From contig NZ_CP045354.1 in NCBI RefSeq assembly GCF_009363435.1, positions 3,252,501 through 3,316,500 on the forward strand: a stretch of 64,000 nt of DNA. The letters are read 5' to 3'. Positions 53,136 through 59,161 of the stretch are shown here, piece by piece (within the stretch, counting starts at the first letter, position 1; each line of letters opens with the position of its first letter). Made by a program: the position numbers and the translations under genes. The DNA is from Labrenzia sp. THAF82 (GTDB taxonomy: Bacteria; Pseudomonadota; Alphaproteobacteria; Rhizobiales; Stappiaceae). The notes beneath the pieces are model-generated. The model was not told where the DNA came from, ran no database searches, and saw only the letters and a list, made by a program, of their open reading frames with translations.

Positions 53136-54440
53136 ATGACAGCGGCAGACACTGCGGACATTGAGCGTGACGAAAAACAAGCCGCCCCAACGCGCCCCTT
53201 TTCCCCATTTGAATGGATGATCGCCGGCCGCTACTTGCGGTCGCGGCGCCGGGAAACCTTTATTTCCGTGATTGCCGGCTTTTCCTTCGCGGGCATCATG
53301 CTTGGTGTGGCGACGCTGATCATCGTCATGGCAGTGATGAACGGATTTCGCACCGAACTCCTGGGCAAAATCCTCGGTATCAATGGACATATGCTGGTCC
53401 AGCCGATCGACCTTCCGTTGACGGACTATGATGCAGTTGCTTCACGTCTTGAGGGCGTGCCTGAAGTTGTCAGTGCCATTCCCTTTACCGAAGGCCAGGC
53501 ACTCGTCTCTGGACCGGCCGGAAATTTCGGTGCGCTGGTTCGGGGTATCTACGAAAGTGATCTGAGACGTGTCCCGCTGATCGCAAACACGGTTCGAAGC
53601 GGAACCCTGGATGGATTTGACGAGGGTGAGGGCGTTGCCATCGGCTCGCGTATGGCGCAACAGCTCGGAATTACAGTCGGTGACAATGTCACCATTATCT
53701 CGCCTCGTGGCAGCGTGACCCCCATGGGTGTAACGCCACGGGTCAAGGCCTATCCGGTTTCAGCGATCTTTGAAATCGGAATGAGTGAATACGACGCGAC
53801 GTTCTTGTTCATGCCGTTGAACGAGGCTCAGGCCTATTTCAACATGGACACCAAGGCGACAGGCATTGAGATTTATGTTCTTGATCCGGACCGGGTCGGA
53901 ACAATGAAGGCAGCAATCGAAGAGGCCGCAGACCGTCCAACCTTCGTGACGGACTGGCGGCAGCGCAACATAACCTTCTTCTCTGCCCTGGAAGTTGAGC
54001 GCAACGTGATGTTCATCATCCTGACACTGATCGTTCTGGTCGCTGCACTGAACATCATTTCAGGAATGATCATGCTGGTGAAAGACAAGGGCAAGGATAT
54101 TGCAATCTTGCGCACAATGGGTGCTTCACGTGGCGCCATCATGCGTATCTTTCTGATCACGGGAGCAAGTATCGGCTGCGTGGGAACTCTAGCAGGATTT
54201 GTTCTCGGGCTGGTTGTCTGTCTGAACATTGAAAGCATCCGCCAATTCGTATCTTGGCTGACAACCACCGAACTGTTCTCGCCCGAGCTCTATTTCCTGT
54301 CGAAACTACCTGCTGAAATCGATAGTGGAGAGACGACCACCGTCCTGTTGATGGCGTTGCTCCTGTCCTTGTTGGCAACGGTTTATCCGGCATGGCGTGC
54401 CGCGCGCCTCGATCCGGTTGAAGCGCTCAGGTATGAGTAG
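53136..54440 (+). CDS. lolC: Lipoprotein-releasing ABC transporter permease LolC/LolE type
   Basis: Inner-membrane permease that extracts outer-membrane lipoproteins for LolA. 434 residues, four helices: one near residue 45-70, then three in the C-terminal FtsX domain (about 290-420), with a large periplasmic MacB-like domain between. Only one permease gene is present beside lolD, so the transporter is presumably a homodimer here. Overlaps an alternative lolD start; effectively adjacent. Confidence 0.93.
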
Positions 54441-54450
54441 GAGCGGGGAG

Positions 54451-55167
54451 ATGAACATGGCTGTCGATCCGCGTCAGACGCCAGGCACTGCTCCGGCCGC
54501 GCTTGAACTGTCCGGCATTACGCGCAGCTTTGATGAAGGCGATCGGCAATTGCACATCCTTCGGGGAGCTAATCTTCGGATTGAGCCCGGAGAAATGGTA
54601 GCTCTCGTCGCGGCTTCAGGAACCGGTAAATCGACACTTTTGCATATCGCGGGTCTCTTGGAGCGCCCGGATGAGGGTGATGTATTTCTCGGTCCCGTCA
54701 ATTGCTCCGAACTCTCTGACGCGGAGCGCACCACGATCCGACGAAATGACATTGGTTTCGTCTACCAGTTTCATCATCTGTTGCCGGAATTCACCGCCGT
54801 TGAAAATGTGATGATGCCGCAAATGATCCGTGGCTTGCCGCGCAAGGAGGCTGCCAATAGAGCCGACGAGTTGCTCAAATACATGAGGTTGGGCGACCGA
54901 GGCAGTCACCGGCCGTCGGAACTCTCAGGCGGGGAACAACAGCGCGTTGCAGTCGCGCGGGCGGTGGCGAATGCTCCGCGCATTCTCCTTCTCGATGAAC
55001 CGACCGGGAACCTTGATCCCAAAACAGCCAGTTATGTTTTCGAAGCGCTTTCCGCACTGGTACGTGCTTCAGGTGTCGCGACGCTCTTTGCCACGCACAA
55101 TCTTGAACTGGCTGGTCGCATGGATCGCGCTATCACACTTGCGGATGGCCAGGTCAAAGACCTTTAG
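54451..55167 (+). CDS. lolD: Lipoprotein-releasing ABC transporter ATPase
   Basis: ATPase partner of LolC, about 238 residues. Walker A reads AASGTGKST: the first Gly of GxxxxGKS is Ala, a variant I associate with alphaproteobacterial LolD. Signature [14 protein letters not shown], Walker [15 protein letters not shown]-loop in [15 protein letters not shown] 54451 (GGAG seven bases before) or 54457 (GGGGAG six bases before) are both possible starts. Confidence 0.93.
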
Positions 55168-55261
55168 CCGGGTCAAGTCTTCCAACTTTAGAGATGATTT
55201 TTCAGGACACGATGCCGAATTGAGGCAATCGGCATTGCTTTACTGTGCCTGGAACAAAGCA

Positions 55262-55276
55262 AAAACCTCAGGTTTT
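55262..55276 (+). terminator. Weak terminator-like hairpin after lolD
   Basis: AAAACC, loop TCA, GGTTTT in the lolD-dnaE gap. Short and without a good T tract. Confidence 0.3.
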
Positions 55277-55319
55277 CATCGAATTTGATTTGCCTACTGA
55301 CAAGAGGAACAAAAAGGGC

Positions 55320-55348
55320 TTGCAAAAGGAACAAAAATAGAACATGAT
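55320..55348 (+). promoter_or_regulatory. SOS-controlled promoter upstream of dnaE
   Basis: TTGCAA (55320-55325), 17-base spacer, CATGAT (55343-55348). The LexA box fills the spacer, so LexA binding would block RNA polymerase. Predicted transcription start near 55355. Confidence 0.55.
55329..55343 (+). promoter_or_regulatory. LexA (SOS) box, alphaproteobacterial type
   Basis: GAAC (55329-55332), 7 bases, GAAC (55340-55343): the direct-repeat operator GTTC-N7-GTTC known for alphaproteobacterial LexA, read here on the other strand. The spacer is all A/T. Confidence 0.7.
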
Positions 55349-55381
55349 CTCATCAACGTTAGGTCAGGTCTGGAGAATGAA

Positions 55382-55480
55382 ATGTTCTATATCGCTCGTG
55401 ACTTTGCAGCTTTTGGTTCGCTTGTTTGCTTCTGCACGACACTTGCTGTTTGGGGTGAAGTACTTTTCTCCGCAGGTTGA
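55382..55480 (+). CDS. Candidate SOS-induced single-helix membrane peptide, 32 residues
   Basis: Very short ORF starting at ATG 55382, with GGAG (55372-55375) six bases upstream, about 27 bases after the predicted SOS promoter start. The peptide begins MFYIARD, continues with the hydrophobic run FAAFGSLVCFCTTLAVWG and ends EVLFSAG: one transmembrane helix with a short charged N-terminal part. This is the layout of LexA-controlled membrane peptides such as Caulobacter SidA (division inhibitor) and E. coli TisB. No homology can be claimed from sequence alone. dnaE follows 189 bases later with no clear terminator between, so it may share this transcript. Confidence 0.55.
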   Translation: MFYIARDFAAFGSLVCFCTTLAVWGEVLFSAG

Positions 55481-55669
55481 GGCCGGTAACTGAGCGCTGC
55501 TGTGCGCTTTGTCGAAGAATATCAGGATTGCGGACGGTGGTGTCCGGCTGAGGTTTGCGCCTTTCGCCAATAGAAAGAACAACGGTAACAACCGGGTTGA
55601 TGGCTCGACAGAGCCCTCGCAAAGCGTTTCACTTGTGTGCTGATTCTGAACGGGCGTGCGAGTGCATCA

Positions 55670-58600
55670 ATGACGAATTCCGAAACCTCAACTGGTGGCG
55701 CCAAAGCGGGTGTTGGAGCAGCTTCAGGCCCTGGGTTTGTACATTTGAGGGTTCATTCCGCATTGTCCCTTCTTGAAGGGGCTCTGCCCATCAAGAAGCT
55801 TTTGGATCTTGCAAAGGCAGACGAACAGCCGGCAATGGCTGTTGCAGACACCAACAATCTCTTTGGCGCGCAAGAGTTCTCCTCGAAGGCATGGGGAGCC
55901 GGTATTCAGCCGATTACTGCCTGCCAATTGTCAATTGCATTTGAAGACGGGCTTGAGAGCGGTCGCCGCGGAGAGCCAGCCCTTGCGGATCTGGTTCTGA
56001 TTGCAATGACGGAGACCGGATACGGCAATCTCATGGAATTGTCGTCGCGGGCCTTTCTGGATACGGAAACCGGATTGCGACCGCATGTGTCGCTAGAGTA
56101 CCTCCTTTCAAAGTCTGAGGATGTCATTGCCCTCACAGGCGGTGCTTATGGTCCGATTGGAGCCGCGCTTCTCGCGGGTCGCAAGGATTTGGCAAAATCG
56201 CGTTTGCGGCAGATCTCAGACGGCTTTCCCGGACGCTGTTATGTGGAGTTGCAGCGGCATGGCATGGATGTCGAGCGCAAGACCGAAGATGCGTTTCTGG
56301 ATCTAGCCTACGAGCTGGATTTGCCTCTGGTCGCAACAAACGAAGCTTTTTTCCCGAAGCGCGAAGATTATGAAGCGCACGATGCGCTGATCTGCATATC
56401 CGAAGGGCGCGTGCTTATTGAGGATGACCGCAGACGCCTGACACCTGAACACTATTTCAAAAGCCGCGCAGAAATGTGCGCACTGTTTGCCGATCTGCCT
56501 GAAGCGCTCTCATCGACTGTTGAAATTGCTCGTCGTTGCAGTTTCCGGCCGATGAAACGGGACCCGATCCTGCCGCGATTTGCCGGTGCGGATGCTGACC
56601 CGGAAGAAGCAGAACATGCAGAAGCGGAAGAGCTCAAAAAGCAGGCTCGGGAAGGACTGCAGGCACGGCTTGATGCTCACGGTCTTGCTCCGGGTCTTGA
56701 GGAGAAGGACTATTGGGACCGGCTCGATTATGAGACCGGTATCATCGAACGTATGAAGTTTCCCGGCTATTTCCTTATCGTTGCCGACTTCATCAAATGG
56801 GCCAAAGGCAATGACATTCCCGTTGGCCCGGGTCGTGGGTCAGGAGCTGGTTCGCTCGTTGCCTGGTCGTTGACGATCACCGATCTCGATCCGATGCGCT
56901 TTTCGCTGCTCTTTGAACGGTTCCTCAATCCGGAACGTGTTTCGATGCCGGACTTTGACATCGACTTTTGCCAGACGCGCCGTGAAGAGGTCATCCGCTA
57001 CGTTCAGGAAAAGTATGGCCGCAAGCAAGTGGCTCAGATCATCACCTTTGGTTCGCTGCAGGCGCGTGCGGTCTTGCGGGACGTCGGCAGGGTGCTGCAG
57101 ATGCCATACGGTCAGGTAGACAGGCTATGTAAGCTTGTGCCTGCCAACCCGGCCAACCCGGTAACGCTCGCCCAAGCGATCGAGGATGAACCGCGCCTTC
57201 GCGAAGCAGCAAAGGAAGAGGAGATTGTCGAGCGCTTGCTTGGCATGGCGCAGAAGCTTGAAGGGCTTTACCGCCATGCCTCAACGCATGCGGCTGGTGT
57301 GGTGATTGGCGACAGACCCCTTGAAAAGCTGGTGCCGCTTTATCGTGATCCGCGTTCCGATATGCCGGTTGCTCAGTTCAATATGAAAATGGTTGAAGAT
57401 GCCGGTCTCGTAAAATTCGATTTCCTGGGTCTGAAAACACTTACTGTCATCGACACTGCGGTGGAGTTGATTGAGCGTCGTGGGGTCAATGTCGATGTCG
57501 CCGGTTTGCCTATCGACGACATCAAGACCTATGAAATGCTCGCCCGAGGCGAAACCTTCGGTGTGTTCCAGCTGGAAAGTCAGGGCATGCGCCGCGCAAT
57601 CGCCGGTATGAAGCCAGACCGCTTTGAAGACATTATTGCGCTGGTGGCGCTTTACCGGCCGGGACCGATGGAGAACATTCCGGTCTACAACGCGGTGAAA
57701 CACGGCGAGCAAGACCCGGACTGCTTGCATCCGTTGCTAGAACCGATCCTGATGGAAACCAATGGCATCATCGTCTACCAAGAGCAGGTGATGCAGATTG
57801 CACAGGTGCTTTCCGGGTACTCGCTCGGCGAAGCGGACCTTCTACGGCGGGCAATGGGCAAGAAAATTGCTGCCGAAATGGAGGTTCAGCGTGCGCGTTT
57901 TGTCGATGGTGCTGTCGAACGTGGCATCAACAAGTCACAGGCCGGAACAATATTCGATCTGGTGGCGAAGTTCGCGAACTACGGATTTAACAAATCCCAC
58001 GCTGCGGCCTATGCGCTGGTCTCCTACCATACAGCCTGGTTGAAGGCGAACCATCCCGTCGAGTTCATGGCGGCTTCCATGACACTTGACATGGGCAACA
58101 CAGACAAGCTCGGAGACTTCCGCCAGGAAGCGCGCCGCATGGGTATCGAAATTGTGCAGCCGTCCATTAACCGCTCACAAGTCTTTTTCGATGTTGCCGA
58201 TGGCAAAATCCTCTATGCGATGGGCGCGATCAAGGGCGTCGGCGAGCAAGCTGTTGAACACATTGTGGAGGCGCGTGGCGACGCGCCGTTCAAGAGTGTC
58301 GGCGATTTTGCCAGACGAATTTCACCGCGAGCACTCAACAAACGGACATTAGAAAACCTGGTTGCCGCTGGTGCTTTCGATGAGTTGGAGCGGAACCGGG
58401 CAAAGGTTTTCGAAGGGCTGGATCGAGTCATGGGCTTGGCGCAACGAACGGAGGAAAACAAGACGCTCGGCCAGGATGAACTGTTCGGCGCCAGCGACAG
58501 CGAAGAGCCGTTGCAACTGGACGAAGTGCATGGATGGACCAACGAGGAAAAGCTTCAGCGGGAGCACTCCGCCATTGGGTTCTACCTTTCAGCACATCCG

Positions 58601-59161
58601 ATCGACGAATACGCACCAATCCTTGAGAAAATGAGGGTTCAGCCTTGGACGCAATTTGCTGAAGCAGTCAAGAAAGGCGCCTCGGCGGGAAGACTTGCAG
58701 GGACGGTCGTCTCAATGCAGGAGCGTAAAACCAAGACCGGCACACGCATGGGGATCGCGCGTTTGTCAGATGCGACAGGTCAATACGAAGCCTTGCTGTT
58801 CAGGGAAAAGCTGGAACAATTCCGCGATGTCCTTCAATCCGGCAGATCCGTTGTGGTTCTGGTTGGCGCAGACATGCGTGACGATGAACCTTCGTTGCGG
58901 GTTGAACAGGTTGATCCGATCGACAAGGTGGCCGCACGTCTTCAAAAAAGCATGCGTGTCTTTGTTCGTGACGAACGTCCGATCCGAAGCCTTGCCAATC
59001 AACTGAAGGTCCGCGGGGAAGGGGACGTGACAGTCATCGTGCTTCTGGAAAACGGGGCACGTGAAGTGGAAGTCAAGCTTCCCGGAAGGTTCAGATTGTC
59101 CCCGGAAATCGCAGGCGCGCTCAAGGCTGTTCCAGGTGTAATGGACGTACAGATGGCGTGA
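55670..59161 (+). CDS. dnaE: DNA polymerase III subunit alpha
   Basis: Replicative polymerase, 1163 residues from ATG 55670 (a GTG at 55637 would add 11). N-terminal PHP domain (FVHLRVHSALSLLEGA), polymerase core with PGRGSGAGSLVAW and catalytic Asp pair in SMPDFDIDFC, YQEQVMQIAQ and FNKSHAAAYALVSYHTAW, then helix-hairpin-helix and OB-fold regions. This is the main DnaE1 type, not the error-prone ImuC/DnaE2, to judge from length and the complete C-terminal half. Confidence 0.96.
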   Translation: MTNSETSTGGAKAGVGAASGPGFVHLRVHSALSLLEGALPIKKLLDLAKADEQPAMAVADTNNLFGAQEFSSKAWGAGIQPITACQLSIAFEDGLESGRRGEPALADLVLIAMTETGYGNLMELSSRAFLDTETGLRPHVSLEYLLSKSEDVIALTGGAYGPIGAALLAGRKDLAKSRLRQISDGFPGRCYVELQRHGMDVERKTEDAFLDLAYELDLPLVATNEAFFPKREDYEAHDALICISEGRVLIEDDRRRLTPEHYFKSRAEMCALFADLPEALSSTVEIARRCSFRPMKRDPILPRFAGADADPEEAEHAEAEELKKQAREGLQARLDAHGLAPGLEEKDYWDRLDYETGIIERMKFPGYFLIVADFIKWAKGNDIPVGPGRGSGAGSLVAWSLTITDLDPMRFSLLFERFLNPERVSMPDFDIDFCQTRREEVIRYVQEKYGRKQVAQIITFGSLQARAVLRDVGRVLQMPYGQVDRLCKLVPANPANPVTLAQAIEDEPRLREAAKEEEIVERLLGMAQKLEGLYRHASTHAAGVVIGDRPLEKLVPLYRDPRSDMPVAQFNMKMVEDAGLVKFDFLGLKTLTVIDTAVELIERRGVNVDVAGLPIDDIKTYEMLARGETFGVFQLESQGMRRAIAGMKPDRFEDIIALVALYRPGPMENIPVYNAVKHGEQDPDCLHPLLEPILMETNGIIVYQEQVMQIAQVLSGYSLGEADLLRRAMGKKIAAEMEVQRARFVDGAVERGINKSQAGTIFDLVAKFANYGFNKSHAAAYALVSYHTAWLKANHPVEFMAASMTLDMGNTDKLGDFRQEARRMGIEIVQPSINRSQVFFDVADGKILYAMGAIKGVGEQAVEHIVEARGDAPFKSVGDFARRISPRALNKRTLENLVAAGAFDELERNRAKVFEGLDRVMGLAQRTEENKTLGQDELFGASDSEEPLQLDEVHGWTNEEKLQREHSAIGFYLSAHPIDEYAPILEKMRVQPWTQFAEAVKKGASAGRLAGTVVSMQERKTKTGTRMGIARLSDATGQYEALLFREKLEQFRDVLQSGRSVVVLVGADMRDDEPSLRVEQVDPIDKVAARLQKSMRVFVRDERPIRSLANQLKVRGEGDVTVIVLLENGAREVEVKLPGRFRLSPEIAGALKAVPGVMDVQMA

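Follow-up and report, generated by a model that had tools for sequence, protein, structure and literature searches.

How alphaproteobacteria outside Caulobacter restrain division during DNA damage is, to our knowledge, a mostly open question. A short gap upstream of dnaE in Labrenzia sp. THAF82 poses it in concrete form, and the window analysed here (the whole stretch of DNA, 64,000 nt) contains this gap. According to the original prediction, made from the letters of the window, a tiny ORF in the gap encodes an SOS-induced membrane peptide that acts as a checkpoint, like SidA, which stops division, or TisB, which depolarises the membrane. Is this ORF a gene at all, and if so, to which of the known peptides does it belong?

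A 32-codon reading frame between two larger genes

The ORF lies between two genes that we take, by similarity, to be lolD and dnaE (Table 1), and its predicted product is MFYIARDFAAFGSLVCFCTTLAVWGEVLFSAG. As had been claimed, the ORF is 32 codons long, with GGAG six bases 5′ of the ATG. A single hydrophobic helix had also been proposed for the peptide, and an AlphaFold2 model built from single-sequence input is indeed one helix, spanning residues 2–31 (mean pLDDT 90.7); the best 15-residue mean of the hydropathy is 1.96. Pfam and NCBIfam gave no match with the window peptide as query. Foldseek gave none with the single-helix model, a query that is uninformative anyway.

A second, overlapping ORF (55344–55493) was ruled out as a gene: its ATG sits inside the −10 site, and in 13 of 35 copies its frame is interrupted by a stop in the region of the peptide.

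Table 1. Features of the lolD–dnaE gap and its flanks, in window coordinates. The names lolD and dnaE are our assumption.
Feature	Position	Strand	Basis
lolD-type ABC transporter ATPase gene, upstream neighbour	54397..55167	+	ORF list
−35-like hexamer TTGCAA	55320..55325	+	exact in 32 of 36 aligned distinct loci, including the window's
LexA-type box GAACN7GAAC	55329..55343	+	exact match; exact in 35 of 37 distinct relative loci
−10-like hexamer CATGAT (CATnnT in relatives)	55343..55348	+	CATnnT in 33 of 36 loci
GGAG ribosome-binding site	55372..55375	+	sequence; kept in 37 of 37 distinct loci
ORF, 32 codons, putative single-helix membrane peptide, SidA relative	55382..55480	+	conservation, profile, homology
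dnaE, DNA polymerase III alpha subunit	55637..59161	+	ORF list; synteny anchor

A conserved LexA-type box in the promoter spacer

The perfect LexA box that had been noted before the ORF is exact (GAACAAAAATAGAAC), with 38 nt between box and ATG. Exact GTTCN7GTTC sites occur four times in the window against 2.76 expected, the other three all inside larger ORFs, and by this count the box on its own is not significant and could be chance. It becomes significant because it is conserved in relatives. All 28 automatically read relative loci (of 30) carry it, 27 exactly and one with one mismatch, at a distance of 36–52 nt from the start; the 52-nt value comes from a later ATG taken in one locus (L025), where the box is 46 nt from the first ATG.

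The box occupies the 17-nt spacer between a −35-like and a −10-like hexamer, and its last base is the first base of the latter. Both hexamers occur together, at this spacing, in 30 of the 36 alignable distinct loci; the 37th (L271), which has a one-mismatch box, was left out of the alignment. A strict sigma-70 scan of positions 55150–55720 called no promoter, including none at TTGCAA/CATGAT. A repressor sitting on the box in such a spacer would block polymerase.

Further LexA-like sites were seen upstream. The window has a one-mismatch site (GAACAAAGCAAAAAC) at 55252–55266, starting 77 nt 5′ of the main box. In two neighbouring genera, all six loci (L069–L074) have a second box, GTTCN7GTTC, that starts 75 nt 5′ of the main one; this inverted box is possibly a second LexA operator.

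Selection acts on the peptide

Conservation at the protein level had been named as a check on the prediction, and the outcome was favourable. Among 86 loci scanned, three escaped the search pattern, one of which (L266) has an intact 32-residue peptide. Of 37 distinct loci, two have an ORF of another length and were excluded, which left 35 distinct copies of 32 codons as the test set. Over these copies, which are related by descent and whose substitutions are not independent events, dN/dS was ~0.10 (average pS 0.63, pN 0.13), and the variability at codon positions 1, 2 and 3 was 0.18, 0.08 and 0.48. When the window copy was compared with the rest, pN/pS was 0.15; when equal numbers of changes were placed at random, it was 0.96 (lowest value of 300 runs, 0.79), and 44% of copies were broken. 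A stop occurs in none of the 34 other copies.

These figures bear on a different reading of the locus, in which dnaE itself is the target of the LexA box, so that the replicative polymerase is SOS-boosted, and the ORF is no more than a leader without protein function. The listed GTG start of dnaE (with an in-frame ATG at 55670) lies 156 nt past the peptide stop codon, and a scan of positions 55150–55720 found no terminator-like site, so read-through into dnaE is possible. A leader would, however, hardly explain the comparison of the window copy with locus L053, in which 19 of 23 synonymous sites have changed and only 3 of 70 replacement sites, nor the conservation of the entire peptide rather than of a run of regulatory codons. 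The spacing also speaks for the ORF as the target of the box: box and ORF keep a narrow distance of 36–46 nt, whereas box and dnaE are ~160–720 nt apart in the family's other genera. We regard the leader reading as very improbable. As judged from its substitutions, the ORF is evidently a real gene under strong protein-level selection.

A profile of the peptide matched 85 of 87 family genomes (E up to 0.1), covering seven of seven genera; of the two misses, one keeps the ORF intact after an exact box and the other has a broken copy. Roseibium or Labrenzia account for 22 of the 26 named loci found with this profile. In the other genera of the family, all 40 places matched by the profile (40/40) are near dnaE, and 38 of the 40 have an exact box 5′ of dnaE. 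A tiny hydrophobic ORF qualified in 35 of these 38, under criteria that were fixed after ORFs had been seen in some loci. The ORF is also present in the other three (L076, L083 and L088): in two the ribosome site is weak, and one narrowly misses the hydropathy limit.

Only one broken copy was noticed in the family (L299, genome G470). Its frame is lost midway and it has no exact LexA box; the assembly consists of 980 contigs, and the break may be an error.

Beyond the family, sequence searches faded quickly. A genus-only profile found nothing convincing past the window genome among 385 class genomes (two weak matches), and a search with a 201-base DNA stretch hit the same genus only (31 of 61 genomes, and 0 of 24 of other families). 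Synteny with dnaE served in their place.

A counterpart in Caulobacter and the relation to SidA

According to excerpts of PMC4211646, SidA is an inhibitor of 29 residues that is induced by the SOS response, resides in the inner membrane and interacts with FtsW, and an excerpt of PMC10769358 gives the sidA locus of Caulobacter crescentus as CCNA_02004. Our Caulobacter set comprised 18 genomes of one genus whose DivK shares 94–100% identity with the PDB chain of C. crescentus; the DivK query was confirmed against that chain. In 18 of 18 genomes, a 29-codon ORF stands before dnaE behind an identical box (GAACATCTTGTGAAC). NCBIfam model NF033228 names this ORF SidA (72.4 bits, E 2e-20, cut-off 35), the match ending 47–50 nt before the dnaE match in three of three genomes tried, and Caulobacter vibrioides, the named control, was likewise above the cut-off.

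The window peptide gave no match to this curated model at E up to 10, and a search of the window genome (G000) with it returned none at E up to 1; the peptide is thus not within the curated SidA equivalog (>35 bits). One relative (L270) scored 17.4 bits against the model (E 0.0032).

Shuffling of single pairs proved weak: the ungapped scores of the window peptide against three SidA-type peptides were equalled by 12–75 of 1000 plain shuffles, and by 19–119 of 1000 shuffles that kept the hydrophobic pattern. We therefore used profiles with column-shuffled controls. A family-only profile (44 peptides) was run on 469 segments from the dnaE upstream regions of 28 Caulobacteraceae loci (L246, with its upstream region missing, was excluded), and SidA-type peptides took ranks 1–21 with a best score of 12.9 bits. 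Twenty column-shuffled control profiles placed at most 10 SidA-type peptides in their top 21, and the best score was 5.4 bits. The alignments of the window family and of Caulobacter matched in hhalign over the first 18 columns (probability 78%, E 1.8e-5). With a Caulobacter-only profile, the window ORF was first among the 18 segments of the lolD–dnaE gap, but only 14th (E 8.8) when all 1769 segments of the window were ranked. The resemblance to SidA is mainly in the N-terminal half, the C-terminal halves differing.

By homology, position 5′ of dnaE, predicted LexA box, and size and helix, the peptide falls within a wider SidA family. The claim of a LexA-controlled checkpoint peptide resembling SidA or TisB is supported to this extent, and position, box, size and homology favour SidA. 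The window peptide is, on present alignments, evidently a diverged SidA relative, and the ORF is a relative of an established system, not a new system.

Box-linked ORFs before dnaE across the Alphaproteobacteria

A dnaE match was present in 359 class genomes, and 109 upstream regions were taken from the best listed matches rather than by random draw; one of them (L187) is incomplete. An exact box in the same orientation stood 5′ of dnaE in 21 of the 109, and each of these 21 had a tiny hydrophobic ORF starting ≤90 nt after the box. Such ORFs were found at 91 of 2180 random positions (real ORFs included) and in 5 of 88 boxless loci. The 21 boxed regions represent 11 families, or 13 with the window's and the Caulobacter family, although some of these class-wide members score poorly and were assigned from position alone. 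Within the Caulobacter family, the box was exact in 24 of 28 loci and 22 of the 24 had a qualifying ORF; two (L242 and L243) have an ORF under the hydropathy limit. Random positions in the two better-populated groups often strike a real ORF (122 of 800 and 84 of 560), and in their boxless loci the ORF was present in 2 of 2 and 4 of 4. Since a few boxless loci have the ORF, the box is not strictly required.

Run class-wide, the family-only profile returned box-linked ORFs of this kind as all eight of its best among 1805 segments, and all five best segments of the Caulobacter-only profile were such ORFs as well. Could this likeness to SidA be convergence, small membrane peptides having arisen independently behind a conserved dnaE LexA promoter? 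Several peptides from other families have poor scores (E above 1), and some signal comes from composition alone: a shuffled profile can place as many as 8 boxed ORFs among its 16 best. The real profile, however, had 13 in its top 16 and 21 in its top 21, where the 20 shuffled profiles had at most 8 and 10. Moreover, three loci (L104, L116 and L120) ranked in the best five with the family-only profile and again with the Caulobacter-only one. We therefore hold independent origins to be highly unlikely.

In one further locus (L158, genome G197), dnaE is likewise preceded by a tiny ORF of this sort, and the box in front of the ORF has one mismatch. The upstream neighbour, in place of lolD, is presumably a GGDEF-domain-like gene, as judged by its motif.

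Public models see little of this group. Pfam gave only two stray single matches for 26 dnaE-upstream peptides, and among the peptides tried only those of Caulobacter type were above the NF033228 cut-off. The literature searched, which did not include the founding SidA paper, contained nothing on SidA homologs 5′ of dnaE outside Caulobacter. The SidA-like peptide thus appears under-recognised here and in many families, the kind itself being known. With moderate confidence, we propose that a SidA-type, LexA-controlled division-stop peptide before dnaE is an old and widespread alphaproteobacterial SOS checkpoint, which gene finders and the curated model would miss outside the relatives of Caulobacter. 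If so, a block of the septum is tied to the locus of the replicative polymerase. The gap is one of annotation, such peptides being easily overlooked for their small size, and the fixed position, the LexA box and the profile together give a ready candidate gene per lineage.

A proposed mechanism and its target

The ORF is probably a diverged sidA ortholog, whose product, once released from LexA control, would act in the inner membrane and block septum synthesis via FtsW/FtsI/FtsN. We infer LexA binding, SOS induction, membrane insertion, the FtsW target and the division block as follows. In undamaged cells, LexA on the box between −35 and −10 would keep the promoter shut. DNA damage would remove LexA, so that a short mRNA is made, and the GGAG site would direct translation of the 32-residue peptide. 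The peptide would enter the inner membrane as one helix and hold the septum-building complex of FtsW, FtsI and FtsN inactive, and cells would grow without dividing until repair is complete.

The window genome has one FtsW-type gene (L280), whose product is identical to Caulobacter FtsW at 169 of 390 aligned residues. Of three positions at which changes suppress SidA in Caulobacter, the window FtsW shares A31 but has Leu for F145 and Ser for A246. According to an excerpt of PMC4211646, FtsW F145L suppresses SidA in Caulobacter. Because the window FtsW has Leu at this very site, the FtsW contact or its set-point may differ; the peptide may have changed in step with FtsW, or it may act on another target site.

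Two related observations concern FtsW more widely. The column of Caulobacter F145 is Leu in two and Met in one of three other family members. FtsW/RodA/SpoVE-type matches number one in the window genome, and two above the cut-off in both Caulobacter genomes searched.

The changed suppressor residues, at two of three sites, would also suit a LexA-controlled membrane-active peptide that acts otherwise, by TisB-like depolarisation or by DidA-like binding of another divisome protein such as FtsN, and a short hydrophobic helix suffices for either. SidA homology and the matching position argue against such an action. So do the columns that are invariant in the genus: they comprise an N-terminal Ala-Arg-Asp together with small or hydrophobic residues, and not a stretch of positive charges. 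We think this alternative rather unlikely, and a SidA-like action on the FtsW complex is the reading that we prefer.

Comparison with known systems

Small SOS or division inhibitors of several kinds resemble the window peptide in part. TisB of E. coli is likewise a tiny membrane peptide under LexA control, but it is a type I toxin with an antisense RNA and belongs to a different lineage. YneA of Bacillus and SosA of Staphylococcus differ in being Gram-positive proteins, and both are larger than the window peptide. In excerpts of PMC13396833 and PMC6851548 they are, likewise, SOS-induced division inhibitors, and YneA is reported to interact with FtsW. DidA of Caulobacter, as given in excerpts of PMC4211646, is also a single-helix division inhibitor induced by damage, but it has 71 residues, is SOS-independent (DriD) and binds FtsN.

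SidA (C. crescentus, CCNA_02004, NF033228) differs from the window peptide in length (29 residues vs. 32) and in its C-terminus, which is VWGEVLFSAG here and otherwise in the Caulobacter ORF. The window peptide also falls under the cut-off of the curated model, and its role in division is putative. In both, ~30 residues form a single hydrophobic helix with a common N-terminal half, M-x-x-[IVL]-A-R-[DE]...A...S...F, and both are encoded behind a LexA-type box and a short 5′ leader, directly before dnaE.
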